Source of the DNA: Saururus chinensis
Lineage: Eukaryota > Streptophyta > Magnoliopsida > Piperales > Saururaceae
Assembly (NCBI GenBank): GCA_035235625.1
Contig: CP141148.1
Span: 3,906,001 to 3,970,000 of the forward strand
Direction of reading: 5' to 3'
DNA: 64,000 nt
Shown here: piece by piece, positions 2,712 through 49,442 of the stretch
How positions within the stretch are numbered: the first letter of the stretch is position 1
Layout of the letters: each line of letters opens with the position of its first letter
The notes under the pieces: model-generated
The model's input: only the letters and a program-made list of their open reading frames with translations
What the model was told of the DNA's origin: nothing
Database searches by the model: none
Position numbers and translations under genes: made by a program

Positions 2712-2714
2712 GTT

Positions 2715-7814: not shown

Positions 7815-7819
7815 GGATG

Positions 7820-22259: not shown

Positions 22260-22411
22260 ATTAATGAAAATCTCTATTCCGGTTTGAAGTACAAGTTTTC
22301 TCCACCACACGCTTTGGCATTCACGACAATTGTCATCAATACTCCTTTAAAAAATTGAATCTGACTCATCTTAAACCTTCTCCTTTTCTTTTGGATTTTA
22401 GATTTTGTTTG

Positions 22412-22418
22412 TATAAAA
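22412..22418 (+). promoter_or_regulatory. TATA box of RLP A
   Basis: TATAAAA in tttgtataaaaaggcatgg, 61 bp before the chosen ATG. The same motif sits at 52796-52803 before RLP B, so it predates the duplication. Confidence 0.65.
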
Positions 22419-22478
22419 AGGCATGGTTAGAAGACAACTTTCATACCATACACTTCATGCATGTGTAGTAGAAGTGAA

Positions 22479-25400
22479 ATGGGTGCATTTAGTTCCAGCA
22501 TCATCTTTCCGATTCTCATTTTTATTTGTGCGCTTTGCACAAATGCAATCCAGTGCATGGGAGAGTCATTATGTATTGATTCAGAGCGTGATGCCCTCAT
22601 CAAGTTTAAAGACGGTCTGGAAGATCCCTTTGGACGTTTAAAATCATGGAACAACAGTCCGGATTGCTGCAAATGGAGTGGAGTCACTTGTGATAGCCAC
22701 ACTGGGTATGTTTTTAAATTAGACCTTCACAGTCCATGCATAATCGATGATTGGGATGTAATCACTGACCCCGGTTGTTATATACTGGGTGGACGATTAG
22801 ATTCAGCTTTACAGCATTTAAAACATCTTGAATATTTGGATCTCAGTATGAATTTTTTCAACGGAATTCCAATTCCAGACTTCATAGGTTCTATACAGGG
22901 TTTGAAGTATCTTAACTTCTCCTACTCGCGGTTTTGCGGCCAAATACCTTATCACATCGGTAATCTTTCTAAGCTTCAGATTTTAGATGTTTCTTCATTG
23001 GATGCAGATGGGCCTTGTAATCTGGATGCTAAAAACTTGGATTGGTTGCAAGGGTTGTCATCTCTCAGGCACCTTGAGTTGAACCATTTGGACCTGTCCA
23101 AGGTGAGTTCAAACTGGATGAACATGATGAATTCACTCCCTTTGTTAGAAGAGTTGCATTTGCAATGGTGTGGTCTCTCTAGTATTCCCCAATCATTGCC
23201 TTTTATTAATTTCACATCTCTTCGAGTCTTTGATGTTGGGAGCAACAACTTTTCTACAACTATCCCTGGATGGGTTTCTAACATCACTTCTCTTCATTCA
23301 ATTGACCTCTCCTGGAATGGGTTTCATGGAGGTGTCCCTGCTACTTTTTCTTTGCTTCATAACTTGAGAGAGCTACGTTTGGGTGACAACAACATCAAAG
23401 AGAATGTTTCAAAGCTACTTTCAGGTGGATGGACTCACATTACCTCAGTGGACTTGTCTCATAATGAATTGTTTGGTGAACTCCCCATTTCTCTTGGGAA
23501 TATAACCTCAATTATCACACTTGATTCGTCATATAATGGGATTTCAGGCAGAATCCCCGATCAGATTGGGAGTTTAAGAAATCTGGAATATTTTGATCTA
23601 TCTGACAATCAAATTGAAGGTGAAATCCCCAAACAGATAGGAGACCTAAAAATGTTGCAAACGCTTTCTTTGTCTCGTAATAGATTTCATGGTGAAATAC
23701 CAGATTTGAGTGAACTGATTTCATTGAAAAAATTACTCCTTGACGACAATCATTTGAATGGGACTCTTTTGTCAACAATTGGACATCTCTCTCAATTGTT
23801 TTATCTCCAGCTATCCAATAACTCTTTGCAAGGTCCTATCTATCAAGCTCATTTTCAAAATTTAAGCCATTTGGTATATTTGGACACGTCATTGAACTCC
23901 TTCACTTTTCAGCTTCCACCAGATTGGATTCCTCCATTTCAACTTGAGAGCTTCTATATAAGGTCCTGTCGTATCGGGCCTCATTTCCCTTCATGGCTAA
24001 AAATGCAGAAAAATATCAAGCGGTTAGATTTTTCAAATACATCGCTTGTTGGCAAAATACCTATATGGTTTTGGAACATCAGCCACAATCTCAACTATTT
24101 AAACCTTTCCAACAACATAATCAGAGATAAACTCCCAAATCCATTTTTGATTGGTGGCCAGTCCGCACATGATAACATATATGTTGATCTCAGTCATAAT
24201 CAATTTTGGGGTCTAATGCCTAATATTTCGGATGGACTTTTCCTACTTGATTTATCCCATAACAATTTTTCTGGAGAAATTTTACCTTCTATATATAATG
24301 TTGGCACCTTTCTTGCTTCAAATAATAGTCTGAGTGGTTCAATTCCATCAATGCCTGGACATATGAGTACTCAATACATTCTTGATCTTTCTCACAATAA
24401 TTTAACGGGTCCAATTCCATTAAAGTTGGGAGAAAGTACGGATCTTCTTGTACTTGACTTGAGTTGGAATCATTTGTCTGGGCACATACCATGGGAGAGA
24501 GTTATGTTTTCCGGTCTGTATTCATTGCACCTCGACCACAATAATCTATCGGGCGAACTACCATCATCATTGAAGAATTGCAGCAATTTGGAAATTTTGG
24601 ACCTTGGAGAGAACAAATTTTATGGACGCATACCCATTTGGATTGGTAAAAATCTCTCCTTTCTAAAAGTACTTCGATTGAGGGCAAACATGTTCACTGG
24701 AGCCGTTCCTTCACAACTTTCTTACCTAATATATTTGCAAGTACTTGATCTAGCGCAAAACCACTTAAGAGGTTCAATTCCGCAAAGTTTTGGGAACTTT
24801 ACAGCTATGAGGGAAGAACATCTGGTTCATGATTCTCTTGCTTATGAAGAACGTTACACTGAAAATATTGGTATATTGTTGAAAGGCCGAATCCTTGAAT
24901 ATACACGTACTCTTTTTATGGTAGTAAGTATGGATCTCTCACAAAACAGTTTGTCAGGGAAGATTCCCAATGAGCTGACAAGTTTGCGTGGATTAATCTC
25001 CCTTAACCTACATGGTAACAGATTATCTGGAAACATCCCAGAGAACATTGGCTATATGAACCAACTCCAATCCCTTGATCTATCAAGGAACAGACTTTCA
25101 GGGCTAATTCCTCCCAGCATTTCTAAGTTGAACTTTCTCGGTCACTTGAATTTGTCATACAATAACTTGTCTGGACATATTCCTTCTGGATGGCAACTTC
25201 AAACCTTATTGGATCCGTCAGCATATATAGGCAACCAACTTTGTGGGCCGCCACTAGAAAATTGCATTGATGTTGATCCTTCAAAAGTTCCAACCTCTAA
25301 TGCCAATGGGGAAAACGATGAGGCCACCTTTGAAATGGAATGGATTTACTATGGAGCGGCACCTGGCTTTATTGTTGGTTTTTGGGGAATATGCGGAGTA

Positions 25401-25493
25401 TTGTTTTTGAAGAAGACTTGGAGAATTGCTTATTTTAAATTCTTTGATAGCTTAAAAGACTGGATTGCAGTGAAGTTGACAATGTCTACTTAA
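22479..25493 (+). CDS. LRR receptor-like protein, EIX2/Cf type (RLP A), intact
   Basis: A single-exon ORF of about 1004 residues. In order: signal peptide (1 to about 28, IIFPILIFICALC), LRRNT with CIDSERDALIKFKDGL and the paired-Cys DCCKWSGVTC, about 30 extracellular LRRs of the LxxLxxLxLSxNxxxGxIP type, an island domain at about 775-815 (YTENIGILLKGRILEYTRTL), four C-terminal LRRs, the LRRCT CGPPLENC, an acidic juxtamembrane, one transmembrane helix (about 953-976, GFIVGFWG with a GxxxG) and a 28-residue cytosolic tail without kinase. Such proteins sense apoplastic microbial or self ligands at the plasma membrane and, from EIX2/Cf knowledge, signal through SOBIR1 and BAK1-type kinases. I chose 22479 rather than the ATG at 22461 because RLP B starts at the equivalent codon and lacks the upstream one. 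Confidence 0.93.
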   Translation: MGAFSSSIIFPILIFICALCTNAIQCMGESLCIDSERDALIKFKDGLEDPFGRLKSWNNSPDCCKWSGVTCDSHTGYVFKLDLHSPCIIDDWDVITDPGCYILGGRLDSALQHLKHLEYLDLSMNFFNGIPIPDFIGSIQGLKYLNFSYSRFCGQIPYHIGNLSKLQILDVSSLDADGPCNLDAKNLDWLQGLSSLRHLELNHLDLSKVSSNWMNMMNSLPLLEELHLQWCGLSSIPQSLPFINFTSLRVFDVGSNNFSTTIPGWVSNITSLHSIDLSWNGFHGGVPATFSLLHNLRELRLGDNNIKENVSKLLSGGWTHITSVDLSHNELFGELPISLGNITSIITLDSSYNGISGRIPDQIGSLRNLEYFDLSDNQIEGEIPKQIGDLKMLQTLSLSRNRFHGEIPDLSELISLKKLLLDDNHLNGTLLSTIGHLSQLFYLQLSNNSLQGPIYQAHFQNLSHLVYLDTSLNSFTFQLPPDWIPPFQLESFYIRSCRIGPHFPSWLKMQKNIKRLDFSNTSLVGKIPIWFWNISHNLNYLNLSNNIIRDKLPNPFLIGGQSAHDNIYVDLSHNQFWGLMPNISDGLFLLDLSHNNFSGEILPSIYNVGTFLASNNSLSGSIPSMPGHMSTQYILDLSHNNLTGPIPLKLGESTDLLVLDLSWNHLSGHIPWERVMFSGLYSLHLDHNNLSGELPSSLKNCSNLEILDLGENKFYGRIPIWIGKNLSFLKVLRLRANMFTGAVPSQLSYLIYLQVLDLAQNHLRGSIPQSFGNFTAMREEHLVHDSLAYEERYTENIGILLKGRILEYTRTLFMVVSMDLSQNSLSGKIPNELTSLRGLISLNLHGNRLSGNIPENIGYMNQLQSLDLSRNRLSGLIPPSISKLNFLGHLNLSYNNLSGHIPSGWQLQTLLDPSAYIGNQLCGPPLENCIDVDPSKVPTSNANGENDEATFEMEWIYYGAAPGFIVGFWGICGVLFLKKTWRIAYFKFFDSLKDWIAVKLTMST

Positions 25494-25502
25494 TGCTAGA
25501 AG

Positions 25503-25928
25503 GTACTCACCCAATCCAACGTTGTTTTAATGAAAAATGCTTCCTTTACGTTAAAAAACATACGATCAAAAGCCCACTTTATCATCCCATCACCATTGAT
25601 GAGTAGGACCCACAAAAATAGGTCTCACTCATCAATGGTGATAGGATGATGAAGTATACTTTTGACGTATGTTTTTGACGTAAAGGAAGCATTGCTCTTG
25701 TTTTATTTGTATCATTGTACACCGTATATTTCTCATCATGTTCTATGTTCATTATATTGTACTTTTTTTTCATTTTTTGAAAGGCATTTAAGATGTTTGA
25801 TCTATGAAGTATATGTTGCAGTTTTCATCATGTAAGTTGTTGAGGTGAGGTTAATGTAGTGCTTTATATGAATATTTTATATCAGGTAGCTAAATTTTTT
25901 AATTAGCATGTTTGATTGTATTTTGCAG
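25503..25928 (+). other. Probable 3'UTR intron of RLP A
   Basis: Ten bases after the stop, AG|GTACTC is followed, after the MITE and a T-rich stretch, by TTGATTGTATTTTGCAG (ending 25928). The same donor and acceptor are kept in unit B (55909-56160). Introns in the 3'UTR of intronless-coding RLPs are plausible; there is no transcript evidence here. Confidence 0.45.
25530..25697. mobile_element. 168-bp palindromic MITE in RLP A 3' region
   Basis: Almost the whole element folds back: aatgcttcctttacgttaaa … and its complement …gacgtaaaggaagcatt, with cccatcaccattgatgagta facing actcatcaatggtgatagga. The 8-bp TSD ttgtttta is exact at 25522-25529 and 25698-25705. Unit B has one copy of that octamer and no element. 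An 8-bp (or 9-bp with one mismatch) TSD points to a hAT- or MULE-type MITE. Confidence 0.85.
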
Positions 25929-26254
25929 GTAAAAAATAAGTGGAAGCACAGTGGGATGATCTTTGGACTTATGATTGATTTTGTTTTAGTTTGAATCAGC
26001 GTATATATGTAGAAGTATTATGGCAAAAGACTGGTCAAGTTATGTGCTGTTTATTAAAAAAGTTATTAGCCAACCGGTGAAAAGTAACTAAACATTGCAC
26101 TCGTATTTATGATTTTAACTTGAAAGTAAAATGAAAATTTAGTTTGGTGGTTTTTGCACCAGATTTATCATGAATGCTATTTTGGGTTTTATTTTCATCA
26201 TTTACCGTAAATAAATTATTTCTCAGTAAATGGAGTCCTTATGGAGTAAAAAAA

Positions 26255-26780
26255 GTTCTCTTCCACACCACCGAGCTCAACGTCGTCTCCCTTGCTGACA
26301 ACGAGCTCTCCGGGGAGTTCCCTAGCCACTTCGCCCAGCTCCCCGCCCTCCGGGCTCTTAACCTCTTCGACAATGTTGTCGCCAGCCCGTCCCTTCCAAG
26401 CCCCGCCGGGAGGTAACAGACCAGGATGAAGCCGGGTGTCATCGCCAGCATCATCGTCAACGATCTGGCCAAGGTTGGAATCCTTGTCATGGTCTTTTTT
26501 CTACATCTACCGGAAGAAGAAAAAGGAGAGAGCGGGAATGTTGGCCATGAAGAATGCGGAGCTGGGTGGCAACGGGGTCGGAGCAGTTACTAAGACGAGG
26601 GAACGGTCTTCGCCGGAGATTGGACGTGCAAGGTGGTCGTCTATTGGGACGATAGTCGGAGGGAGAGGGGCGGAGGAGGAGACATCAAACCCGGCCATGT
26701 CCGGGTCAGACTCCGATAAGGAGGATATGAATCGGGGGTGGAGGGGTCCCACCGGTTCGCTGGTATGCACAACAGTGTAT
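26255..26780 (+). pseudogene. Fragment of an LRR receptor kinase (unit A copy)
   Basis: GC-rich island in AT-rich DNA. Translation in shifting frames gives TTELNVVSLADNELSGEFPSHFAQLPALRALNLFDN (LRR), then MKPGVIASIIV, VFFYIYRKKKKERAGML (transmembrane exit and basic stop), and a Ser/Glu-rich cytosolic juxtamembrane ending GPTGSLVCTT. This order matches the At4g37250/At2g23300 type of LRR receptor kinases, up to just before the kinase domain. The kinase is absent and several frame changes occur. About 180 bp of LRR coding present in the unit B copy (56540-56780) is deleted here. Confidence 0.7.
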
Positions 26781-27689
26781 CAAAACTTGCTTGCCTCTTG
26801 TTTAACGCTTATCGTGGCGAGCACTTGGCGTACACACTTCATGATGTGCCAAGCATATAAACGGATTCATACATTTGAAAAAAAAAATTAACCTATTCCC
26901 CAACATCGCCCGCTTGCTTAAGCCTGTGATTGGGTTCCCTCCTATTTGTTTGATAGTATTAATTGATAACTCAGGGCTAGGGGTGTTAACAAGCTCAGCC
27001 AAATTGAATTTTGGGTTAGCTCGGTTTGAACTCTTAATTTTAGGTATTGGCATGAGCTTATTTACAACTCGATTGAACTACTAAGCATCTAACTCGAGCT
27101 TGGTTCAAGAAAAAAATCAGCTGGCAAATTTAACATGGAGTGACCATGTAACTTAGCTAGAATTTAGCTCAGCTGCAAATTCGGCTATGTGCAATCTTGG
27201 ATCAAATCAAATTAAATCCAACTAAGTAAGCTAGTAAAAATTCTAAAAGGTTCTGTTGTTGCAAATATTGAACTCCTTTCTACTTTGCCTATAACACTTT
27301 TTGTGTCATGCATTCCATCAAATAAATATAACATTCTTATTATTTAAATATTTTTTTATTAAATGTAATTTTATCACTCTGTCATTAAAGTTGTATGCTT
27401 GGCCATATTATTTTAAATAATATTTATACTGTTTTTACATTGATTCATATATTTTAATATATAAAATTAAGTACAACAACTTAATTAATATTACCTCATT
27501 ATATCAATATATACTAATTGTTTAATAAAAAATAATATTATTAAATACTCCCTTTATATTAAATCAATAGTTTCATTTAGTAGGGTGTGCTCGAGTGGTG
27601 GGCAATCAAGTTCGGGCTAAGATAGTGTCTGGATGGTGCTTGCGAATGGCTTAGCAGTTAGTAGTTAGCCGTCAACCATCTCTTGGTGG
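26781..27689. other. AT-rich spacer duplicated in unit B
   Basis: No gene. Co-linear with 57455-58188 and 59180-59290 (shared: cctattccccaacatcgccc, aactcgagcttggctcaag-like, atatcaatatatactaatt). A half-Stowaway-like end, tactccctttatattaaatc, at about 27546 recurs at about 59198, so it predates the duplication. Confidence 0.7.
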
Positions 27690-28805
27690 CCAGTGAGTAG
27701 GGCTGGTAATCGGGCTAGGCTCGGGCGCCCAAGCCCTTTTAATTAGAGTCCAAGCCCGTTAAGCCCGACTACTCACAGCCTATTTAAAGACAAACGGTCA
27801 TGAACCGGTCATGGGATCTTAATGGGCTATAACTATATTTAACTAAAAAAAAGTTATTTTTGACCTCATTATTAGATGTAACTTGAACATACCGTAAAAT
27901 TTGATTATTAGAGTCAAATATTTATTAAAAAATTTTATTTTATTATTTTTAAATAAAAGATAAATATAAATTCTTAAATCCTATTTAGATATGAAACCAT
28001 CTCAACGAATTAGGCATACTTAATACATTTTTTAAAAGGGTTTTAATTTCCCTTGCCTTATGTAGTTATTGTTTCATATTTTTAGATTGTTACGAGGTTA
28101 AAGGTGGTTTAGATGCTATGTAATACTTAAAACGCACTTAAAGACATGAAAAATAGTATCGGTCAATACAGGGCCATATTAACCGATACATACCCGTATC
28201 AATTGAGACCGATACAAATATAGGGGTAGTACGCCCCCACACCAAAAGTCGATACGTATTGGTCATACCATATCGATACAACCGATACATATCAATATGA
28301 TATTAAAAGAGCCGTTGATGATTTAGATGCTATTTTTTTCCATACCCATGCTAAACGTATAACTTTTTTTCATGTATACTAATTGATTGAGATTATTAGC
28401 ATATTTTCCACGGAACAATTATTGTCCAGTATTCACTAACCAATTCCTCCAAAGCTGCAAATCAGTTTCTATTTGAATAGGAGCCACGAGTTTAGAAAGC
28501 CATATATAACAAAAATATATAAACTAATAAAAAAAATCTCCATATTGTTAAGTACGATTTACTTTTTCAATCCAATTAGAGCTTGAAGTAGACTTTTGGT
28601 ATAGAAAAATTAGAGTATAAATATTAACTTCCCCTATAGATTGAGTGAATAATGAGATAATGCAACAAGCAAAATGCGGAGTGGGGATTACGAAGAAAAT
28701 CATCACATGAGCCTATCTCATGCTTGCGAGTTACAACACAGCTACTAGTGACTACTAAGGTCATGTGTGCAGTGTGCCCCATCTGCATCTAATTGGAGCA
28801 CATGA

Positions 28806-28995
28806 AGAAGAGTTTTTCATATTTCTCTCTAACAAAGAGCCCAACGTAAGCCATATATGAAGAAACACACGTTAGTGTGAGTGATACTAATACTAATGTA
28901 CACTAGTGTGTGCGCCGTCAATCTCATGGATGAATGGCTCCCATGCATTGCTTACACTAAACTTATTGTCAGTAAGGAGTATAAAAAACTCTTCC
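28806..28995. repeat. Small inverted repeat inside the hAT element
   Basis: gaagagtttttcatatttct at about 28807 faces its near-complement agtataaaaaactcttcc ending about 28997. It could be a nested MITE of about 190 bp; no convincing TSD. Confidence 0.35.
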
Positions 28996-29991
28996 CATGC
29001 ATGAATGGGTAGGTATGGTAGCATAATTGCAATCAACCAATCAGGAAAAAAAATGCCTGCAATATAGCAATACCTGTCATTGTAGGTTGTGATGACTAAA
29101 TAAAGAACACTTCTTGATTGATTTCACCTTGGCAAAGTTTGCAGTGGAAGGGGGATGATTCAAGATTTGAAGGTCTAAAAAAACATCAATTTTATCCTGT
29201 GGCCACCAAGCCAGAAACGAAATTTTATGCTGTGGCCACCAAGCCAAAAAGAAAGGAAAGAGAATATTGTCTAAATACTATTTCAGTAACTAACAGCATA
29301 TTGATAGCAGACTGCTTGCTGTTGATGTGTTAAAAAGGTAAAACATTTGTCTTAATCATACGTACTGTAAAAAAAAACAAAAAACAAACGCTAGTATGTA
29401 TATTCATCAAACATGGTACTACCTCAAGCTCAATTCTCCCCATAACCAACAAATCAGCTATCACCATTAGACCATAATCCCAATCAACACAGATATACGT
29501 CAACTAACACCCAAGTTGTGACTCGGGTCACTGCCCCCACAGAAGCTGCATTTAGAAACGTTTCTACACCTCCTGAAGCCAGCTCAGAATTTCCGTCATT
29601 GAGGCATTGATGGTGATCAAAATGGTAATGAGTGCATCATTATCAATATATCAGTGTACAGCTTTTCCATTTTCAAATTAATTTGTATAATTGATCAGAT
29701 AAACCCCATTCAACATTTCCATCATGAACAACAAATAAAATGTATACAAAATAATTTCCAAGAAAAAAAAATATCATTAAATGGGATGAGAATCCCCTCA
29801 TTGCAATCGATATGTACATTCAGTGACTAGCTACTATCCTGTTTCTTCCTCTAGCTAATTGTTGGGTACCTGCCCATCTTCTCAAAAATGAAACCAACAA
29901 AGACCAAAAAAAAAAAGATACGGCTCCTTTGCCAGTAGACAAGTCAAAATTTTGTGCAAAAAAAGGCCAAGACAAAAAATTAAAGAATCCA

Positions 29992-32746
29992 TCAAAACAA
30001 TTCCACTGATTCACCGGCAAACACCATACCAAGACATAGCTGCCAATAATCTCGTAAACTAATAGATATCCAAGGCATTATAGGAGGTAACTGGTATTCA
30101 GAGATGTTGGAATACTGCACATAGACATCAAACAATTTACAACCAAAAGACTTTTACAGCTGAAAATGATCTTGGGCAGGCTTCAAGAGTTTACCTTCTT
30201 CCGCTAAAAAGCCCATGAGCAGATGAACTGCCGGAAAATAAAGAAACTCCATCGAAAACTTTCCTCAAGTGAGGTAAGACAATTTCTCCTGCAGTGAATC
30301 CATTAGATCTTTAATGCGAATATTCCATAACATAAAAGAATTCGAATGCTAGTGTTCAATAACATAATGAAATTGCATTTCATAACTGAATGGTTCATAC
30401 AAACAACATTGACAAAGAAATAAGCAAGAGCCGTTTTCAAAGGCTTACACATCCATGCCAGCTAAACAAAACTCAAGCGCCAATAAGCACACCAGTTGTT
30501 ACTGGTCATGGTCATGAAATTTTTGTTCCATTTTCTGGAAGTATTGTAATTTCTTTTCAATGTTTGTAAGAAAACACTGCAAAGCTACGTAGAACTTTCA
30601 AAAAACTGTGGAAGTTCCATATTAGTCTAAACAACCATGAACTTTAAAGGTTAGAGTTAATCTAAAGTAAGAATAAGCAATTAATGCATATGTTGCTAGT
30701 GATAAATACTCGGTGCAGTGGGATGAAAATTTTTATAATAAAAGATAAAAGTTAGTTTGTGCATTTTCAGTGTGTATGCTTGTGTGTGAGTGTGCATGCG
30801 CACACACAACAGAGAGTATATAGTATCTGCACTAAGCACAATATATAGTTACTGCCATGCTCTCCATATCCATATCCATGTTGAAATAAAGTAACAAATT
30901 GGTTTCCTTATACTGTGTGGATGACATAGATTGGAAAAACAAGATGCAAATGGGAGCTCACCAAAGTTTCATTAATATCCCAAGTCTTAGGTTGTGGTTG
31001 AAACCAGATTCAGGTTTCAAGTGTTCGGATAACAAGGGTGATCCAATAAGGCTTCTGTAAACCAGAAGCTGCTGGAATGGTTGCCCCCAAAATCATTGCA
31101 GATAAGGCGTCTAATGAAATTGAAGTGGAGTAAATCCAAAAGAAACCAAAGAGAGGACCAGATCTGAATCACATTAAGAGAGATGAGACCAAAGACTGCT
31201 GCCAATTCATTATTCAGTTTAAAGCCAGCAGGGACCCCCATTAACCATACACAACCAGAGCGTAAAATGTTATTTGTAATCTCATGAGCCAACTGTGAAA
31301 TCCAAACGTATATAGATTTCTTATAATATAAGAAGAAGCCAACAATATTGCCAAGAAGAACATCAAGAATGATACTTGACCATATAGAATGCTTCCGCAG
31401 TTCAACTTTATGGGCGTACTCCACATTTGAACTAGACCTGCAAACTAGACATCATCACAAGCACGCAAAGGCACTACATGCATGATACAACATAGGTGAA
31501 ACATGTATATATACCCAATAAACAATAAAAGTTTACTAAGAAATAGAAAAAATGTTGAAATTGTTCTATGTTACCAAATGATTTGTTCTTGAAGTGAAAT
31601 TGGACAGTAGAGAATCTGGCAACAACGTATGTGCAAAATCTTCCATGTGAAGTTAAACATTTTGGCTAACGCCGAATAAACCAGTGTCTGTGAACCATAG
31701 CTCAGAAGACCATGACAGAGATGAAGAATCATGTAGTATAGACAAACAGCAGGAGCCACAAACAGAGCTACCAATCTCCATGACAACCTGACTAATCAGA
31801 ACAGATAATTTTTACAGTTATTAATATGAACCATAAACAAGAGAAACAGAATTCTGAATTTAAAAATACACTGGAATGATGCTATACATTCAAATGTATG
31901 AACATTTTGAGGGAGAAGAGCTCTCAAAGGTCGCCTTTGCAGCAGCTGCACAGTTGAGTGCCAACAAGACTATACCCTGTTTCAGACGCTTGAAACAACA
32001 GAAATCAGCAATCGAAGTAAAAAATCAGACCATTGTCAAACTCACATAGTATGTTACCATAACAGTAGAAGCCAAACAAACTGACAGTAGAAGCCAAATT
32101 AATTCAAGCACCAAGCAGATGTTTGCCTCTTTTGGCCTTTGAAGGTAATGGATCTGAGTCCAGTATCAGTTTGAATACAACTCTCAGCCAATGAGTGCAA
32201 AAATTAGCCAAAGAAGACTGTTTTTCGCAGGCAAGCATCTCAACATTAGAAGTTTCACAGAGAGATAATTTTACAGCACGCCAACAGTAAAGTTCAAACA
32301 TGTAAGAGCAATCAGCTAAGTCCCAGATAAACAGATCATCATACAAAAATCCATACCACTCTTAATAGGACTGAGGAAGTAAAATATATTTACTTGCATA
32401 ACGGATGATAAAGAGCATATTTTAGAATCACTTCAATTTAGAGTTGGCTAGCAATTTTAATTAATGCCATTGTGACAGTCCAAATATGTTCTTAATGTCA
32501 TAGTCAACCTTGCAATTACCTGATCATGACAAGCAAATTGAAGGCAAAACTTGTTCAAACCAGCCGAGTTGAACTCCTAAAGAGTCAAAAAATATCCCCG
32601 AAATTTTACGTTCATGACTTCTTCAATCAGGATCAACAACAGCAGTAAATAGCACTAATTTAACTCACAGTAAAATGGGGAGAATGCACCTTATATCTGG
32701 ACTCCACCAGCAGCCACCTTACGGTAAAAAGTGGAACTTTGACCCT
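29992..32746 (-). pseudogene. PIGQ: PIG-Q/GPI1-like gene (GPI-anchor GlcNAc transferase subunit), broken
   Basis: Exons on the minus strand, 5' to 3': about 32746-32690 (RVKVPLFTVRWLLVESRYK, tentative), 32346-32104 (unassigned), about 31995-31900 (CFKRLKQGIVLLALNCAAAA), 31789-31575 (LSWRLVALFVAPAV … FNFTWKILHIRCCQILY), 31437-31037 (NVEYAHKVELRKHSIWSSII, GCVWLMGVPAGFKLNNELAA, GLISLNVIQIWSSLWF), 30288-30195 (GEIVLPHLRKVFDGVS) and 30114-29992 (LPPIMPWISISLRDYWQLC, natural stop). The WLMGVPAGFKLN and ISLNVIQIWS blocks are hallmarks of the Gpi1 family, the ER-membrane subunit of the complex that starts GPI-anchor synthesis. Splice sites are well kept, but near 31090 the frame shifts (FIRRL to SAMILGATIPAA) and the following conserved exons (SLWRLFRGKKWN) were not found, so the copy is defective. 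Confidence 0.75.
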
Positions 32747-33999
32747 GCAGACGGAACAAAAGAAACCCAAAATGAGAACAAAAATCAATTTTAATCCACC
32801 AATTCGGCTAACATTACCAAGAATACATTACTTATTATGTTGGAACACCTCTAGAACATATCAACAGAGAGAAGGTAACAAGGGATTAGAATAAGTTGAG
32901 CATAATCTTCACGTTTGGTTAAGTGGGCGGCATGTTAAACAATTCGAGGGAGGGCGGCGGAAATGGATTGTTTAGGAGGTGGAATATCTGAGAGATACAG
33001 AATGGAGGTGGCCTCGGAGGAAACTCCAGCTCCATTCTCCACTACCACAAGCTTTTGTCAGTATCACCGTTATTGTGGTCACCACCAATAGACATTTAGA
33101 CACTTTTAATCCCAAGTTTAAACAATAGACAACTAAAAGTAAAGTAGTTCAGCAAATAAAAAAATTGAATTCTAGTAAAATGCACAACTAGTGGCATTTG
33201 AGATCATCAGAAATTAAGGACCTAGTATTGGAACAAAAAAATAAATGTTTTAGAGAAAATTTTGGACATCAAAAATCATAGGTGCAATGAGGGGTGAAGA
33301 AAAACAAAATCTGAGGATTAAATAACCACGTGCACACTACCACTCAAAATGAAGTATTTCATCAATTGAAAATTTCAATTCAGTAAAATGAACAAGTAAA
33401 AGTATTCCAGAACAATTGAACCCAAAAGCAAGCAAGTCAAGGAAAAAGAAGAAGGGAAAGTTTTGGCCTTACAAAACCAAAGTAGCAATTAGGCGTGAAA
33501 GAGGGGACCAACACAAATAGCCTCCGAAAAAGGGGTTCATAGGAGAAGAAGGTGGCACTGCGTTGCCACAAGGCTAGGCATCAGGCTAGGAAGGGCTTGG
33601 CATCGTTCCGGCAGTAACCGCTGCCAACAGTGAGAATGCTGGGAAGAGGTGGAAAGTTTTTAGCAGAAAAGAGGGAAAATGGTGGGGGGCAAAAGTACGG
33701 TAGTGGGGAAGAGGGGAGTATCCAGAAGCCAGATAGAAGACCTGGACTGTTTTACCCGGGAACTCTTCCCTTTCTGCACCTTTACGGGCGGCGGAGCTAT
33801 ACCTCTGCGCACGTTTTGAGATTTGACAGCAACCGTGCAGGAAGTTGAAGCGCGTCTCGGTGTCGGAGGAGAGGCGGGAGAAGCCGCTCTTCCCTCACAA
33901 GCCGGCAGCCCGATAATAGCCCGTCAGTTAATACTCAAACGGGCTCGGGCTGGGCTGGTTAAACGGGCTCAAGGCCCGATTACCACCCCTACCAGCGAG

Positions 34000-34501
34000 T
34001 GATGGCTGGAGAGCAAACGTGAGAAGAGCTAGGATAAAGCCGTGGGTTAGGGTCATTGATCGTGAATTGTCTCTCAGTAATTAATGTTAGCCACCAGATA
34101 AGTACGCCAGCATGGTAAGATTACTCCTACCTAATAATTTCTCCAATTGTACGTTGTCCCTTAGTTTCATTAATGGCTGTAAAATGACTGTCAGATCTGC
34201 TCAGTGAACAAATTGTCTATGCCTTGAATACTCATTTCATTCAATCCAAAGTAAACTTTCTCTCAACAAGAATGCGCTGCCAAATATTGACGCAGATTAG
34301 GGTCGCATATCTCACAACATGAAAACATTATTCGTCAAACACTCGCGTCAAGTCTGATATCAAGTTCTACCATATTAATGGAACACGGACGTTTCCACAA
34401 TACCCATTATTCGTCAACACTCACGTCAAGTCTGATATCAAGTTCTACCATATTAATGGAACACGGGGACGTTTCCACAACACCCTATGGACATGTGTGA
34501 A
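34000..34501. other. Spacer with a 79-bp tandem duplication
   Basis: No gene. 34326-34404 and 34405-34483 are tandem copies (cattattcgtcaaacactcgc … ggacgtttccacaa) differing at a few bases. The stretch 34206-34270 resembles 52036-52100 upstream of RLP B. Confidence 0.75.
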
Positions 34502-34587
34502 TTATTTGATGAGTTTTTTCTATATTACTTTGGCTTGATATATAAATATTTTATATATTTTATATTTTAATATTTAATTTTATATAA

Positions 34588-35950: not shown

Positions 35951-36559
35951 ATTGTTCATCAAGTCAATGATGAAAACCTCTAAGATCGTGTACATGCTCA
36001 CATAAGATGATTTACATAATAAAACTTGCATATAAAAAACCATACTAGAGTCCCTCTTTGCACAATAGGGTAGGAAGCTATCATGGCTATTCTACAGTGT
36101 CCTTCCTTAGCATCTACATCTTTCTTCATTCTTATATAACCTTATTTTCCCTGGATAGTCCCTCAAGATTCATTTTTGGAGTTACAGTGTCATCTTGATC
36201 TCCTTTGTAGGGATAAATAGTTTGTGGTTAGAAATTTTTGGACAAAAATCGGAGAAGAGCGATCGCCGATTAAGTGAGGGAGGCCGACAATCACCGAATA
36301 GAAATCAAAATTTGTTGTTGATGAAAATCACTGGGCAAAAATCATAAATTATCACTGAACTCCAATTTCCTCTTCGTTTATGCCCGTCACAACTTGTTTA
36401 CACGATTTTATACTCTAACCCTTGTTGCAGGGGTAATTTGGTCTAATATTTTTTAAATATCGTGTAAGCCTAGGTTCTATGAAATATTTTTTTACAAAAC
36501 TAGGGAATATGAAATATTTGTATCTTAGGCCAGGTAATATGGAAAAACTCTTATTTGAC

Positions 36560-36671
36560 TATTGCTTTAGGGCTTGTCCCATAGAGGCATGTTGCCACAA
36601 ATGACACCAAAGAATCTAACTCAATTAAAAGCATTTTTGTCAAGTCTCTATTTTGGCTTGATCTGAAGTCT
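36560..36671. other. Unit A spacer, co-linear with 59338-59450
   Basis: Non-coding. ttgacaccaaaggatctaac-type sequence, aaaagcatttttgtcaagtc and tattttggcttgatctgaag are shared almost base for base with unit B. Confidence 0.85.
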
Positions 36672-37324
36672 CCTCGTGTAATGCTCGAGATTTTTCATAC
36701 ATTTTTCTTAAAATTTACGAAAAAATTTTGTAATATAACGTCTGTAAATCGAAAGAAAAATGACAAAATCAAAACCTGATAAAACAGTTTATAATTTAAA
36801 ACACTAAACATCAATTTTCTATCTAAATATTTTCATCATAGAGTCAAACATCGTACGGCCAAAGCAAATATCCTCAGGCACTACTCGAAAATACACATAC
36901 GACTAAATTGCTATGATCATAGACTTTAAATACAAATCTCTCTCAGGCATCCCTGAGTGCAAGTCCCATAAAAGTCCACAGTCTAATCTAAACGAAAGTC
37001 CAGAATATATAAACATCTTAACGTCTCATCTCATCCAATACATTGGATCGTGGCACAAATAAACTCACAATGAGTCAAGCATATACCTGAGTCAACAGGA
37101 ATCAATCCACTGCTGAAATGAGCATCCATCTCTAGGAGCTCTCCGCACAAACCTGCAAAACCTCCCGTATAACGGGTAGGGTAATGAGTATTTTCATACT
37201 CAGTATGAAAATACCCAGTAGGGGAATCCAAACAATGAACTCATAAGTTCATAAATATATGCGTTCATGCAACTCAAACATGAAGTAGATAGGCATATCA
37301 ATATCATGCTCATATGCATACAGT

Positions 37325-37440
37325 CATACCAAATGCACCATCGTGCCAAAGTCATACCAAATGCACCATCGTGCCAAAATCATACCAAATGCACCATCAT
37401 GCCCAAAATCATACCAAATGCACCATCGTGCCAAAATCAT
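37325..37440. repeat. 28-bp tandem repeat, four units
   Basis: cataccaaatgcaccatcgt + gccaaaat repeated four times with few changes, within the outer solo LTR. Confidence 0.85.
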
Positions 37441-38059
37441 ACTATCAAATTAAACTTACACAAACGCCCTTATTCAGGGTCTTACAAACTTACTCGTACC
37501 ACTGTACGCTTACTCATACAACATACGCATACTTGTACGACCTTACTCGTACAGCTTACACAAAATCACACTTACTGTCTTACTCAAAAACATACTCTCA
37601 CAATCGTACTCATACACATACTCTTACAGTCGTGCTCATACTCATACTCTTACAGTCGTGCTCATACTCATACGCTTACACATATTATCGACCACTGAAG
37701 CTCATTACAACTAATAAGCTCCAACGTCGAATGGAAAAGAATGTCACTCGGGCAACACCTTAACCTCCGGGGAGTGACTATACGCCATAAAATTTTTCGA
37801 AGGTAAGGCACACCAATGCTCATGGGGCACTAGATCAAACAGGTAAGAGTAGATCCATGATACTACTTACTTGAGCGCGTAAACATAAACACCCACACAT
37901 TAGGGGTCATACAGTTGCCCACCATAATAGGTCTTATAGTGCCAGAGAATTGCCCACCATAATGGGTCTTATAGTGCTAGTGCCACTCTAGGTCAGAAAA
38001 CATACTGTGCCACTTGGGTAGAAACATACAGTGCCACTCTTGGGTGGAATCATACAACG

Positions 38060-38310
38060 CTCTTAATAGAGTATCAAAAGTCTGGGCTTATACAACATAC
38101 AGACCAAATCAAAAAGATACTTCGCTCTCAACAGAGCATCAGACGTCTGGGCTTCATACAGCACACAGACAAAGTCAGAAACGTACATCGCTCTCAACAG
38201 AGCATCAAACGTCTAGGCTTATACAGCACGCAGACCAAATCAGAAACATACGCTGCTCTCAGCAGAGCATCAGACGTCTAGTGCTCTATACAGCACACAG
38301 ACAACATCCC
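38060..38310. repeat. About 65-bp tandem repeat, four units
   Basis: Each unit contains agagcatcagacgtctgggc, tacagcacacagac and cgctctcaac. Two to three inverted counterparts lie at about 46985-47185 in the minus-strand LTR, showing that both LTRs share the array but with different copy numbers. Confidence 0.8.
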
Positions 38311-38989
38311 GCAGGATAAACACCATGGCAAGACATGAGAAATGCTCAGTCGATTCATTATCGGCTAGCTCAAACATGGAACTTAATCCGTCAAACGCTC
38401 AGGTCTTAAACTCACAACGCTAACATTAACTATGCTTATAATTCAAGTTTGAATTAAGTACATTATGCGGTATAATTATGCCAAACAACTCACAGTCCTC
38501 GACTGATCAAACCGAAGTTGAGCCCGATCCGAAACCCAAGTTCGTCAGGGCAACAGACTTCATTTAATCTGTCCACATCATGATCATAACACATTGTACA
38601 TCAGACCCTTACAGTCTTACATACTTCGCCATCCATCTTATGGCCAAATCATCTTACACTGACATCATCAAATGAAGCTCCTCAGAGCCAACCCAGTTGT
38701 CGCCCTCTTACTTATATCTCACTTATTATGCTTACTTTTCACTTCATAATCTGTACGTTATGCTTGTATAACTATGCACACTCTTACTATCTGACAAACC
38801 TCACCTGTCATACCCATATCCTCTGTCATCCGTCATACGCTTACATATCCATATCCAATCCATACCAAATGCTGACACTGCCCACATGCACATACGCATA
38901 TCCATAGCATAGGCAAATAGTCACCATACATACGTATGTCTATCACACATATGTATAACACACATACCTTCACACATACGTAGCTTACC

Positions 38990-39365
38990 AACACACTCGC
39001 TAGCCATCACTAGCGCATGCATACATACGTCTTCAAACATGCACGCTAGTCATCACTAGCACATGCATAATCCATACATACTCCAAACATGCACGCTAAC
39101 CATCACTAGCACATGCATACATACGTCAAGCATACACGCTAGCCATCACTAGCACATACATACACATACATACATATTTTAAACATGCACGCTAGCCATC
39201 ACTAGCACATGCATACATATTCATACATACTTTAAACATGCACGCTAGCCATCACTAGCACATGCATACATACTTTAAACATGCACGCTAGCCATCACTA
39301 GCATATGCATACACATACGAAGCTTACCAACAAACACGCTAGCCATCACTAGCACATACATACAC
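38990..39365. repeat. Tandem repeat built on cgctagccatcactagcac
   Basis: About seven units of 40-60 bp, each with acgctagccatcactagcac followed by atgcatacata-type sequence. Only traces are visible in the inverted LTR (about 46200-46280, gctagtgatgactagc), so the array expanded in one copy or shrank in the other. Confidence 0.8.
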
Positions 39366-40768
39366 CCAACATGCTTACAGCCAACATGCATGTTATATGC
39401 ATTTCAACATACCATATAATCATGCTTACATGCACATCATGCAATCTGATCGTTACTTAACATCCAAAGCATGAAATCATACAATCCTAGCATGCTGCTA
39501 CTCATTCAAAGCATGCTATAATGAAATTATGAGTTCAAAGCTCCCCTACCTCGTAATCATGACGTTTAATGGCGAGCACACGATGGTGGCAGTGGCGGTA
39601 GTGGAGTTGGCAGCCAAAACCGTTGCTTGGCTGAGAGAGCTGCTGTCCTGAGGATTTTAGGAAGTGCCAGAAACAATCACGGTTAAACAGGGTGTCAGAA
39701 GTCAATGCAGCAAAACCCGCGATCCACGGCGGCACCCTAGGGCGGCCGGGAGAAATGTCGTGCCAACATATGTGGCGGTGCGACCAGAAGTCGATGGTGT
39801 ACTCATTGAAGATCGGCCGGTGGCTAAGACGTACTTGGCTGGTCATAAGACGTCGAAATCGGCCGTGGACAACACCCAACGACGACGATTTTTGCGTCAA
39901 CAAGGGCCCACATAAGGGCGGAGAGAGTGGGGCAACGCTCGAGGACAAAGGAGAGGTGGAGGATGGCTCTGTGTCAACTCCATTCGGTGGCAAAGCCAAC
40001 CGATGGTTAGGCAACGCGAATGTAGCGCCTAAACCCAAAAGCACACGTGTGGTCACGTGCACACGCGGGAAAAAAATGTCACTCTAGGGGGAGATGGGTC
40101 AGACGGTAGCGGCCCAAGGCCAACAGGGCTAAGGTGTCATGCCCCGGCGATGCCCGACCCGAGCCGAACCCGGTACAGGGGCCGGTCAAGCGCGCGGGGG
40201 CGACGAAGTGAAAATTGAGAAACGATCTAGCGGAAGACTTAACCCTAACCACGAGCGATTAACAGAAATACGGAGTACGTACAATCCTTTGAGCAAGAGT
40301 AAATAAAAGGGAATAAAGAGTATTGCTTATCACAAATTAAACAACAATTCTCAAACCTACAAGCTTAGTTAACTAAAGCCCACACCGGCTCAAAATAAGT
40401 CATAAGCATCACAACTGTAAAATGTGACATAAATCCAAAACAAAGAACTCTACACAAATGTTCTAATCATAAAACATAAAACCAAAGAAGATAAGTCACA
40501 CAACGATCTCCATCATCACACCGAAGCCATCTTCGACCTTTCCTCAAAGAGGAGATCCTGTCCGTCTACGTGTCGCACCACGCAGCCCCAAATCAAAACA
40601 CAAGAAAGAGGGGTGAGTTTAACAAACTCAGCAATGGTTTTAATATCACTGTCAACATCAAAAATACGATAGCATAGTAATAAGATCATTTAGATCAAAG
40701 ATTTACATGATGCATTATTTTCTAATCACACATACATATCACCTAACACTGCATCATGGTGCATAATC

Positions 40769-40990
40769 AACCTGCATTGATGTATCTCTAACATACATAT
40801 TCCCACATGCATTATATCATAACAATCTGCATTGTTGTATCTCTAACATACATATTCCTACATGCATTATATCAAAATTAAACTGCATGGATGTATCTCT
40901 AACATACATCTTCCCACATGCATTATATCATAACCAACCTGCATGAATGTATCTCTAACATACATATTTAATCATGCATTATATCATCAC
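40769..40990. repeat. 55-bp tandem repeat, four units, in the 3.35-kb solo LTR
   Basis: Unit: ctgcattgatgtatctctaa + catacatattcccacatgca + ttatatcataacaa. Confidence 0.85.
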
Positions 40991-42219
40991 AACCTCCATC
41001 AAGGAGTAATCACAATTTTGGTGTCACACAAACGGGAACATAGACAAGGCCACGAAGACGTGTCATGATCCAAAATTCTACACAAGAATTAAAGAAAGAT
41101 CGGGGTTGTCAATCCCTAATGCTGCTCGCCCTAGACGATCCTGGCCAAGGATGTCCCACTCTCACACAGAGAATCTAGAGCAGGGGTGTTCGCCCAGGGA
41201 CATCTCCTACAGAGGGAAGAGCCCGAGTTCTCACACAGAGAACCCTAGAACACGTGGTAGCGAGGTGCATACGGCATACCACACTGGATTCTCAGGGTCC
41301 AGATGACACTCATAATAACATTCTCACAATCCGCAAGACAAGTACACAACTCGTCCCCACATAATTCCATCTAACTAGACTCAACCTAGGGAGTGCACTC
41401 GTTCCACACAGGAACTCAAATCAAAATATGTCCTTTTGGACCAATCAACTTGCAATTAATCCACGACCGATCAATCTGGCACACAATTTCATCACATTGC
41501 TTCCAATCGGTTAAATTCGATTAACCACGATGAAGCCTCAATTGGAAATCCATTTTTATGATGCATGCAGCATGATACATACGTGGGCAAGGTATACATG
41601 AATCCAAATCAATGATAAGTGCTCTCATCAGCCCCTAATGCATCATTCATAATCACAATATCAAGCTTCAACATCATCATTTAACCCCCACATGTGTGTG
41701 TAACTAGTAGAAGCATTTCATATAATGCATGTCAACATGTTTGAAATTAAACTCACTACCACACTATACATGTGAATTTCTATCTGAACATAAATTCTAG
41801 CGAAAATCATAGAAGAAGAATCGTTGAAATCATATCTCAATTCAAAACTCAACCACAAAGGCTAAACACATATAACATCACTCCTTTCATCATTGAGTCA
41901 TTGCATTCACCAACATCCACACACAACTAACCACAATCTATCATGACAAATCAGTCCAATAATAGGTTGTAATCTTAATGAAAATATGTTTAACTAAAGG
42001 GAATCAACCATTCATAATTTCAAGATAACGATTCCAACATCATGCCACAAAACATAAGTCATTCCACAAATTTCTAAGCATATATCTCAATTCCATAACC
42101 TCAATAGCATGCCTTTCCAGTATCATAATATAGCTTAAAACGCACCACATCATATAAAATTGGCAAGCTAAAGTGGAATCATCAAAATAAACATCATGCA
42201 TTAGAAACCAATCTGCTGT

Positions 42220-42390
42220 GTAGCCGTTCGAACGCCCTTCAGGCCGTTCGATCGGTTAAAAGCAAAATTTTAAAATTCACAGTTTTGCCATTCGAACGCC
42301 TAGCAAGCCGTTCGATCGGCTAAACTGGAAAAGTGTCATTCTGGCAGTGTTGCCATTCGAACGCCCAGAAGGGCCGTTCGAACGCCAACA
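42220..42390. repeat. Clustered ccgttcgaacgcc motifs
   Basis: At least seven copies of gccgttcgaacgcc or gccgttcgatcgg within 170 bp, each centred on the palindrome ttcgaa or gatc. Non-coding; inside the solo LTR. Confidence 0.7.
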
Positions 42391-43688
42391 AGGCAGAATA
42401 GTCCATCTTCTTCCTTTCGTAAATTCAAACCAAAACACCATTGATAACACTTCAAATCCACATCTAACACCCTAATCATCATCAAAAGTCCTTCTTAACT
42501 TCCAGAACATCAAACCATACCATAATAATGCAAAACCCTAAAAAAATCGGGATTAAATAATTTTATTTTTTAATCTTACCATTAACACACCAAATCAAGA
42601 AACTCCATTTCAAAATAAGCCAAAAATGAAGAATTTTACCATGGATAAACAAAGATTTTGAAGACCCATTACCTCAGCACTTGATTAAGCTCGGATTGAA
42701 GAGTCACCCTTCTTGAAATCCTTCAAAACACAATGAGTTGGAATTAAACTCTAATAGAAATCGATTTACCCAAGAAATCCTTAATTAAATCTTAGATCTA
42801 GGGCTTGTTGGTAGTAAAAATCGAATTTTGAATGTTAGAGTTTGTAGTAAAACACAAATCAGTAGTTTTTGATGCCCAAAAAAGAATTGAATCAAGGGGG
42901 AAATAGTAGATTTGGAAGAGATTAAGAAGAAAGTCATGGATTAGTGTTTAATTAGAGTAAACTTACCTTAATCGGCTTCTAATTCGGGCCTAAATGGGGA
43001 TTAGGCCAGCCCTCCCTCCTTAGCCTATTCCCAAAAATGGAAATGGCTTAGGTCTGCCCTTTTATAGTAAGGGTTGGGGTATGCATGGGTAAGTTTTGGG
43101 GTGTAAATTGGAAAAGTAGACTAAAAATTGATATTTTATAAATTAAAGGACTAATTAAGCCTACGAAAATTCTGAAAATTTTTGTATAACCTTAGGTAAA
43201 TGTCTAAGTTCATTTGACCCAAAAATAAAATTTTCGACGGTGGGGCCCACAGGGGTCTTGCCAAAACCCTAACTTTTAGGAAAATAGTGAAAATTCCAAA
43301 AAATCTCAAAAATTCACATTTGGTTTAAAATCACTTAAAACCACAAATACTAAAGTTGATTTTGGTTAAAAACCATCACAAATCCTATTTATTCACGAAA
43401 TCACCGAATAAGATCAGAAAACACGTTAATCTCACGATAACCAATAATTAAAGAAAACCAAAACCGGTTTAGAGATGAGGGTCCTTACATAAGGCCCTTA
43501 GCAGTGGCCAATCAAAGTGGCGACATCGCCGATCGCCACCCACAACCAATACCCAAGGTGCGGGCGGCTGTGCATCTCGCACGATATAGGGTAATGACAA
43601 GCGGCTCATTCCTAGCGGAAGTATAATTGGGCCAAGTGGGGCTGACCCTCACTGTTGCCAAGCCGGGGCAAAGCGTCTAATCTAGCAT

Positions 43689-48441: not shown

Positions 48442-49442
48442 GGAGGAGCAAGGCAATAAGGTGGAGCGGGGTCGGAAACAATAACCCCCTACTAATACTA
48501 GGTCGAGGTAGGTTGGATAGAGTCCTACCGGTGGCCGGACAATGACCGGAAACACACCGGCGTCCAAAAAAATCCGCGGACAGTGAGATGGAAAACATAA
48601 CTAAAACCTGACCAAAAGTGCCGATAGCACACTGCAGAGCGAACAAAGCATGGTGGCGGCTCTAGCCAACGCCTATGGGTTCCTAGCGACCAACTAAACA
48701 TAAGTCTGGTTGAGAGCGGCCGCAAACGACATCAAAATCGTACACCCACAGTTCAAAAACGGGATTAAAGGAGAGAAAAACCCGAAAAAAAGTTTGGTAC
48801 CTCATAGAGGAGCAAAGAGGCCATAACAACGGTCATAGCCGGTGTCTACGGACTCGTGGCGGTGAGGCAAAGCAGATTCTAACAAGAACTGCCGGAATCC
48901 GATGACGGAAGAGGGAGAACAGAGCGACCAGAATCAAGCTCGGGTTCTCACAAAATGTTACTGGACGTGAAAAACTTCTGAAAGTCGAGTTCTGGAATCC
49001 GTGAAATGGATTTCATATATATAGTTAATCTTTTAAATTTTTACATCGATATCCCCAATACACGTTCACCTCTCGATTACGCGTTGTAGCTCCAAAATTT
49101 GCACAGTAAGCACGCAGTGAGCCCCACAGCTCATGACTAAGCCCCACACCCGACTCTATAGGTATAAATACTATGTATGTATACATAAATATGAATACGC
49201 CATAACATCACATTTCCCCGCCAAAAATGACCAAAAAAATAGCAGAAAAATCACAAAAATCGTAGAAAAATTAGGGACCTTACACCTCGAGTCTAGGCAA
49301 GCGGGCTTTTCCACAAAACCAATGTACAAACCTATTATTGAGCTCAGAAGGTAACTAACCATTACTTCTAAAGCAAACAACCAAACGACCTCACCGAGTA
49401 AGCTGAATATTCATAGTGTAGAGAGTATTACAGTTGATAGTA

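Follow-up and report, generated by a model that had tools for sequence, protein, structure and literature searches.

A hAT element holding an intron-containing fragment of a PIG-Q/GPI1 gene in Saururus chinensis

Structure of the element and its interior

The window, i.e., the whole 64,000-nucleotide stretch of DNA that was analysed, belongs to contig C9 of Saururus chinensis. A hAT element of 6294 bp spans window positions 27698-33991, and these coordinates reproduce exactly those of the first-pass annotation. Its features are given below in window positions; L numbers denote stretches around other genomic places of its terminal inverted repeat (TIR), and TSD is the target site duplication.

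27690..27697, unstranded: left TSD, CCAGTGAG (sequence comparison of the ends)
27698..27715, plus strand: left TIR, TAGGGCTGGTAATCGGGC (exact genome matches and end comparison)
27698..28525, plus strand: the transposon's own left end (about 828 bp), matching that of L027 at 89.1%, with its inner half present in L055 as well
28533..32060, minus strand: 3' half of PIG-Q/GPI1 with its 3' flank, captured (alignment to the donor on contig C3)
29992..30114, minus strand: PIG-Q exon 9 with the natural stop and a 1-bp deletion (donor exon comparison)
30195..30288, minus strand: PIG-Q exon 8 (donor exon comparison)
31035..31062, unstranded: 28-bp filler at the junction of the internal loss (alignment to the donor)
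31063..31437, minus strand: PIG-Q exon 6, truncated, with frameshifting losses of 5 bp and 1 bp (donor exon comparison)
31575..31787, minus strand: PIG-Q exon 5 (donor exon comparison)
31888..31976, minus strand: PIG-Q exon 4 with a premature stop, CGA to TGA (donor exon comparison)
32058..32060, minus strand: final 3 bases of exon 3 of PIG-Q, the capture breakpoint (alignment to the donor)
32061..33905, unstranded: second interior segment (similarity to the donor ends at 32060)
32343..32402, unstranded: 60 bp common to the transposase-bearing L050 and L051, 95-97%
32593..32791, unstranded: 199 columns common to L049, 86%; part also in L059, 93.5% over 77
33906..33991, minus strand: the transposon's own right end (about 86 bp), matching those of L027, L048, L049, L050 and L051 at 89-93% and that of L026 at 85%
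33974..33991, minus strand: right TIR, TAGGGGTGGTAATCGGGC, given as the reverse strand (exact genome matches and end comparison)
33992..33999, unstranded: right TSD, CCAGCGAG (sequence comparison of the ends)

The two TIRs are identical at 17 of their 18 positions, with little inverted similarity past base 18, and the TSDs, CCAGTGAG and CCAGCGAG, abut both TIRs and agree at seven of eight bases; both had been described in this way before. The subterminal repeats of the earlier description stand only in a shorter form: the exact motif GGGCTCGGGC has a single occurrence, at 33941, whereas the short motif is enriched near the ends: of the window's 27 CGGGC and 22 GCCCG, five each fall no more than 150 bp from the element ends. 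In a chance test over the whole window (inverted 18-mers agreeing at 17 positions or more, flanking 8-mers agreeing at 7 or more, and a spacing of 0.2-15 kb), two pairs qualified, namely, the ends of the hAT element and a pair at 38280/47027, which sits in the arms of a long-inverted-repeat element. Because a second pair qualifies, the hAT ends taken alone are suggestive and not conclusive.

The cargo consists of exons 4, 5, 8, and 9 and a part of exon 6 of PIG-Q, together with introns and the 3' flank, and a PF05024 match was obtained at 31113-31394 (E 1.3e-17). The own left end stops at 28525 and the PIG-Q sequence starts at 28533; i.e., the two boundaries nearly coincide. All nine splice dinucleotides expected in the copied stretches are intact, and the natural stop codon is present in exon 9, which agrees with the earlier account of at least five recognisable exons with intact splice sites. 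That account also spoke of near-gene-length cargo, which is not the case: only 907 of the 2091 coding bases are included, the copy lacks exon 7, 111 bp of exon 6, and all but 3 bp of exons 1-3, and the reading frame is broken by one stop and three frameshifts. The C9 copy is a decaying pseudogene fragment, and the intact gene remains on C3.

The cargo matches the donor in two long alignments (2188 columns at 94.1% and 1017 columns at 96.7%) and in two further blocks of 90% (92 columns) and 87% (232 columns). Over 296 codons, nine nonsynonymous, five synonymous, and one stop difference were counted. The K2P distance is 0.031 in the introns and near 3' flank, 0.020 in the coding sequence, and 0.119 in the far 3' flank, and a single copying event does not by itself account for this uneven pattern. 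The internal loss corresponds to donor positions 7258-9476, which comprise the end of exon 6, intron 6, exon 7, and most of intron 7. An insertion in the donor as the source of this 2.2-kb difference was ruled out, since part of an intact open reading frame (ORF), namely, exon 7 and the last portion of exon 6, lies in this segment. A template for the 28-bp filler beside the break was also sought and rejected (longest match, 7; shuffled mean, 6.8; shuffled maximum, 11).

A comparison with 20 kb of sequence surrounding the donor gene did not reveal the second interior segment, 32061-33905. Six peptides from this segment were compared with Pfam, and the two matches obtained fell short of the cut-off (E 0.24 and 0.15). 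A tblastn search of the window element with three transposase peptides of L050 and L051 gave no match at E <= 1e-4, and an Rfam scan of the window gave no match.

The donor gene and the insertion site

The donor PIG-Q/GPI1 gene on contig C3 is intact, with 9 exons, 2091 coding bases, and a product of 696 amino acids that matches plant GPI1 proteins along its length. The source region of the cargo is G000:C3, approximately 48540734-48546493, minus the internal 2.2-kb piece. No pair of family ends flanks the gene, as expected if the C3 locus served as donor in the manner that the first-pass annotation had proposed to check. A lone TIR-like 18-mer with three mismatches lies near the donor at donor position 13088, and short matches of 72-75% to the inner part of the left end occur at donor positions 12273-12379.

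A tandem copy of the C9 locus is present within the window and, at 59300-59331, lacks the whole stretch 27677..34477. The hAT element is nested in a further insert of approximately 0.5 kb (27677-27697 and 33992-34477), and the tandem copy therefore shows no empty site of the hAT itself, only the locus without the whole insertion. A resident gene flanked by chance ends was ruled out by the family ends, the C3 donor, and the tandem copy without the insertion. Both outcomes that had been named as fatal to a capture, i.e., a gene resident at this place and a sole PIG-Q locus in the genome, are thus contradicted within this genome, the latter by the complete PIG-Q gene on C3.

Elements with the same ends

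The TIR TAGGGSTGGTAATCGGGC occurs at 61 exact places in the genome, including the two of the window, and the control, the same pattern read backwards, gave no genome match; the genome thereby settles the reality of the ends. Twenty TIR places were sampled, of which 14 carry the left family end, 5 the right family end, and 1 neither, so that the short 18-bp TIR is joined to family-specific subterminal sequence at 19 of 20 places. Further TIRs with up to two mismatches were not found in a 200-kb genome sample, as would be expected if the 516-Mb genome held some tens to hundreds of such ends.

Fourteen longer stretches around other TIR places were inspected, and seven of them contain closed elements with the same ends and other interiors, such as the earlier reading had called for in support of capture. 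Perfect 8/8 TSDs were observed in L026, L027, L048, L052, L056, and L057, and L049 has 7/8; with the window element included, 8-bp TSDs are present in all eight closed elements (six perfect, two at 7/8). The hallmarks of hAT transposases are a BED finger, an RNase-H fold, and a hATC domain. Two unclosed copies, L050 and L051, encode BED/hAT transposase pieces behind the same right end, with zf-BED matches above the cut-off (E 2.4e-8 and 7.8e-11, respectively) and, in L050, a hAT RNase-H match (PF14372, E 9.7e-4) below the curated cut-off. Three other transposase peptides were searched, two without a Pfam match and one without a PDB match, and the hATC domain was not seen in the sequence of L050 and L051, which was read to a point short of their left ends.

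The interiors of several same-ended elements resemble host genes. L049 holds heme oxygenase sequence (PDB 7eqh, E 7.8e-16) and L048 SRPK kinase sequence (PDB 2x7g, E 3.8e-19); unlike the PDB sequences, Pfam gave no match to these peptides at E <= 0.01. In L026 and L056, the cargo is the beginning of an acid phosphatase (PF12689; E 1.4e-5 and 1.1e-5, both just below the cut-off), and a second L056 peptide had no Pfam match. L052 and L057 have approximately 2 kb in common at 95% and are bounded by different perfect TSDs, so the cargo was mobile as a unit in those sister elements.

An ORF of 211-254 amino acids is common to L052 and L057, and further ORFs are common to L054 and L058; these may resemble ABC1-type and MAP65 proteins. 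In Pfam, two L052/L057 peptides had no match, and an L054 peptide had one unrelated match below the cut-off. The PDB matches of an L057 peptide (10 chains, mostly designed proteins, short where shown) were taken as chance.

Genes in the host cargo run leftward from the right end in all five elements whose cargo is supported by searches (the window element, L026, L048, L049, and L056), as do the L050 and L051 transposase peptides. An unconfirmed ORF common to L054 and L058 runs the opposite way.

Origin of the element and comparison with known systems

The element is very probably a non-autonomous hAT, a Pack-hAT, that was filled with copied PIG-Q DNA and inserted on C9. It contains host gene sequence whose donor lies elsewhere, its ends are those of elements with differing interiors, and, as expected for a Pack-hAT, it has no recognised transposase of its own. 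The central claim of the first-pass annotation, that a hAT captured part of PIG-Q as genomic DNA with introns, is borne out by the C3 donor, the same-ended elements, and the introns.

Its two own ends belong to a family dispersed across the genome, and its interior was filled by copying genomic DNA, namely, the 3' part of the C3 PIG-Q gene with introns and 3' flank, plus the second segment. The filling step is likely to have been either copying during break repair or a fusion of two neighbouring elements around host DNA, with the inner ends then lost. A piece of approximately 2.2 kb was lost from the cargo, leaving the 28-bp filler, and the ends and TSD show that the filled element inserted on C9 with duplication of 8 bp. 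Mobilisation probably occurred in trans, by a transposase like the one of which L050 and L051, alike in their right end, encode pieces.

That a segmental or retrocopied PIG-Q duplicate arrived otherwise, and is flanked by hAT-like ends of unrelated insertions, would fit the other qualifying pair (38280/47027) and the non-PIG-Q DNA also inside the cargo (32061-33905), but is very improbable: the PIG-Q cargo starts 8 bp past the last base common to another element's left end, the TSD abuts both TIRs, the same two-ended build recurs in seven other closed elements, and donor similarity ends at 32060, within the element. The retained introns indicate that the copy derived from DNA and rule out a retrocopy. 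For an assignment to the MULEs, PIFs, or CACTAs speaks that, according to PMC3260210, gene capture is better known in MULEs, CACTAs, and Helitrons; the 8-bp TSDs in every closed element, the short 18-bp TIRs, and the zf-BED and weak hAT RNase-H matches in same-ended copies make such an assignment extremely improbable.

It is improbable, judging from the sequence, that the carried exons constitute a working chimeric gene or a regulatory transcript driven from the right end. The nine intact splice dinucleotides and the reading direction away from the right end, common to the five cargoes and the transposase peptides, would suit such a function, whereas the premature stop in exon 4, the frameshifts in exons 6 and 9, the loss of exon 7, the nine nonsynonymous against five synonymous differences, and the opposite direction of the unconfirmed L054/L058 ORF argue against it. 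A broader proposal is possible but doubtful: the family might be a specialised gene shuffler, with the right end acting as a promoter for cargo transcripts or small RNAs and with most non-autonomous members carrying multi-exon host gene fragments, usually along the direction of transposase transcription.

The capture event is well resolved: its donor and breakpoints are known, as are the internal loss, the introns, and the ends of the family. Three other host-gene cargoes (one kind just below the Pfam cut-off) lie behind the same ends. A hAT family is thereby shown to move multi-exon gene pieces in an early-branching flowering-plant lineage, for which a non-exhaustive literature search by titles and the starts of abstracts found no report of hAT gene capture. 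For annotation, the C9 "PIG-Q" is not to be taken as a gene.

The earlier description of intron-containing hAT cargo as uncommon holds only in a relative sense: according to PMC3260210, hATs rarely capture genes, but such cargo has already been described in maize and grapevine, and Pack-hATs in maize and rice. In PMC3260210, 2 Ds2 and 9 Ds-l4 maize elements are reported to contain gene fragments, and Ds2-22 is described with exons 5-6 and their intron. Like Ds2-22 and Ds-l4-354 (Ac/Ds, hAT), the window element has an 8-bp TSD and intron-containing fragments of a gene from another chromosome; unlike them, it has five exons or exon parts over approximately 3.5 kb, an internal loss, a different hAT family, and a magnoliid host. 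Grapevine Hatvine-6, also a hAT, likewise has common ends and variable interiors matching host introns and exons, but its copies, as described in PMC2528002, have common transposase coding sequence, whereas no such sequence could be recognised in the window element. Exon-plus-intron cargo in hATs is thus already published, and the window element adds one clear example. The Pack-hATs of maize and rice, as presented in PMC8903248, resemble it in TIRs with 8-bp TSDs, internal coding DNA, and clusters with common ends; they belong to other species and have other TIRs (sought from Bg and Ac), and, unlike for them, the donor locus and exon structure of the window element have been worked out.

Captured PIG-Q sequence and its donor

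The hAT element spans 6294 bp (27698-33991) of the window, which is C9:3906001-3970000. Its two terminal inverted repeats (TIRs) are identical at 17 of 18 positions, and its target site duplications (TSDs) are CCAGTGAG and CCAGCGAG. Because a second pair in the window, 38280/47027, passes the same end thresholds, these ends by themselves are no proof. The element encloses an intron-retaining copy, made at the DNA level, of part of the PIG-Q gene on contig C3.

Segments of the hAT element
27698-28525: own left end by longest family match, 89.1% to L027, a family copy elsewhere in the genome
28533-32060, minus strand: captured PIG-Q piece, with these matches to the C3 gene:
28533-28624: 90%
28646-28864: 87%
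28866-31034: 94.1%
31063-32060: 96.7%
32061-33905: second interior segment
33906-33991: own right end by longest family match, 89-93% to five copies

The PIG-Q similarity begins 8 bp past the stop of the own left end. The second interior segment has no match in the sequence around the donor gene; 60 bp of it match transposase-bearing copies of the family, and 199 columns match copy L049.

The first-pass annotation had named a donor PIG-Q locus without hAT termini as support for capture; a donor locus with no pair of such termini is present on C3. A genome search with PF05024 gave three places, namely the window element and two on C3 that are parts of one gene. This gene reads as nine exons, every junction being GT-AG, and its 696-aa ORF is intact; its protein matches plant GPI1, with Aristolochia fimbriata (50%) and then Macleaya cordata (48%) leading the best 120 of 267 matches. 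The 20 kb read around this gene contains no flanking pair of family ends; at donor position 13088 there is a single 18-mer that resembles the TIR but has three mismatches, and donor 12273-12379 contains short stretches 72-75% similar to an inner part of the element's own left end.

The cargo holds exons 4, 5, 6 (384 of 495 bp), 8, and 9, introns 3, 4, 5, and 8, part of intron 7, the PIG-Q stop codon, and approximately 1.4 kb of 3' flank. Exons 1-3 (3 bp excepted) are absent, as is the stretch that runs from the last part of exon 6 through intron 6 and exon 7 into intron 7, most of which is gone; a 28-bp filler occupies the junction where this stretch is absent. In total, 907 of the 2091 coding bases are retained, and the nine splice dinucleotides that remain are each intact. 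A stop in exon 4 disrupts the reading frame, as do a 5-bp and a 1-bp loss in exon 6 (the 1-bp loss next to the junction) and a 1-bp loss in exon 9; a further 3-bp loss keeps the frame. Over 296 comparable codons, 9 differences between cargo and donor are nonsynonymous, 5 are synonymous, and 1 is a stop. As a protein gene, the copy is a dead fragment. The K2P distance to the donor is lowest in the CDS (0.020), is 0.031 in both the introns and the near 3' flank, and is highest in the far 3' flank (0.119). The far flank (28866-29276, against donor 5084-5500) is approximately four times as divergent as the introns; sequence within it that also matches in inverted orientation may be another transposon with a history of its own.

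The hAT family and its cargoes

Across the genome of 516,460,831 bp on 11 contigs, the TIR pattern TAGGGSTGGTAATCGGGC is present at 61 places (34 forward and 27 reverse, the window's two counted in), and the pattern read backwards, as a control, at none. At 20 of the 61 places, 240 bp were read: 14 carry the window's left-end sequence, 5 carry its right-end sequence, and 1 (L042) matches neither. Fourteen longer stretches were also read. L026 and L027 were picked for exact TIRs facing each other, L048-L051 represent four of the five right ends, and L052-L059 represent eight of the 14 left ends. Seven hold elements closed within the sequence read; L050, L051, L053, L054, L055, L058, and L059 are unclosed there.

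Closed family elements in the longer stretches
L026: 3050 bp, TSD 8/8
L027: 3809 bp, TSD 8/8
L048: 4049 bp, TSD 8/8, one TIR with mismatch to pattern
L049: 3461 bp, TSD 7/8, one TIR with mismatch to pattern
L052: 3430 bp, TSD 8/8, one TIR with mismatch to pattern
L056: 4446 bp, TSD 8/8, one TIR with mismatch to pattern
L057: 4028 bp, TSD 8/8, one TIR with mismatch to pattern

The right end of L027 and the same 8 flanking bases recur 1.16 kb downstream (L038, C5:6208007-6208024), which suggests that the right part of L027 was duplicated locally.

Host-gene cargo has tool support in five of the eight closed elements, the window's included. The cargo of L049 is a fragment of a heme oxygenase (PDB 7eqh, E 7.8e-16), and that of L048 is the C-terminal portion of an SRPK-type kinase (2x7g, E 3.8e-19), with no Pfam match for either peptide at E <= 0.01; in L026 and L056 the cargo is the beginning of an acid-phosphatase-family protein, with E-values (1.4e-5 and 1.1e-5) that both narrowly miss the Pfam cut-off. 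L027, L052, and L057 have no tool-supported host-gene cargo. L052 and L057 are 95% alike over approximately 2 kb and 91% alike over approximately 1 kb, and their perfect TSDs differ; thus, a filled element of this family has moved as a unit.

L050 and L051 both encode zf-BED peptides, and L050 has a weak hAT RNase-H match. Two more transposase-like peptides gave no Pfam match, one of them no PDB match either, and three L050/L051 peptides have no match in the other stretches read or in the window element. In all five cargo elements the gene runs from the right end to the left, as do the L050/L051 transposase peptides; n = 5 is too small for a claim of bias, and an unconfirmed ORF common to L054 and L058 runs in the opposite direction. 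L054 and L058, located on C2 and C7, are 97% alike over an interior of approximately 2.4 kb, and of the 20 bases read in their left flanks 18 are identical, so the two may sit in chromosome segments that were duplicated and may not be independent insertions.

The insertion site

An LRR receptor-like gene region is tandemly duplicated in the window: blocks of 22263-27676 match 52648-59303 and, past the insertions, 34478-34509, 36551-36669, and 49289-51161 match 59300-61153. In the tandem copy (59300-59331), the left flank joins 34478 directly, without 27677-34477, which places PIG-Q outside the duplicated locus. The hAT sits within a further insert of approximately 0.5 kb; therefore, its exact empty site is not seen in the tandem copy. 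When its two parts are joined, this insert has no further full-length match in the window, the donor locus, or the sample loci.

The duplicated genes (22461-25493 and 52863-55899; 88.9% alike over 3.3 kb) resemble LRR receptor-like proteins by eye, the former being one 1010-aa ORF and the latter two ORFs in different frames. A large nested insertion, 36670-49288, has no counterpart in the tandem copy (59442-59449). In its core, inverted arms (36834-38803 and 46506-48323) whose ends resemble GTAAYGCYCGAGATTTTT flank a GC-rich middle, with 60% GC at 44-46 kb. The sequence 43689-43766 recurs inverted at 49208-49284. At 2182-7815, end repeats (2182-2712 and 7286-7815) 95.7% similar enclose ORFs that resemble reverse transcriptase and integrase by eye, probably an LTR retrotransposon.

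Filling of the element and known hAT captures

Donor DNA may have been copied into the element during break repair, a model mentioned in PMC3260210; alternatively, two neighboring insertions may have fused around host DNA, as in the model of PMC8903248. The 28-bp filler is compatible with end-joining repair, and its templating from nearby sequence was not significant. The element was presumably mobilized in trans by a transposase of the L050/L051 type.

Gene capture is termed rare for hATs in PMC3260210, which describes gene fragments in two Ds2 and nine Ds-l4 elements, and the term "hAT" is absent from the available part of a 2026 review of capture mechanisms (PMC13317346). Intron-containing capture by hATs is nevertheless already known in print, and the C9 element adds a new example. 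Ds2-22, with exons 5-6 and the intron between them (PMC3260210), and Hatvine-6, with introns and exons (PMC2528002), carry the same type of cargo, and the Pack-hATs of maize and rice (PMC8903248) are the known kind to which the C9 element belongs.
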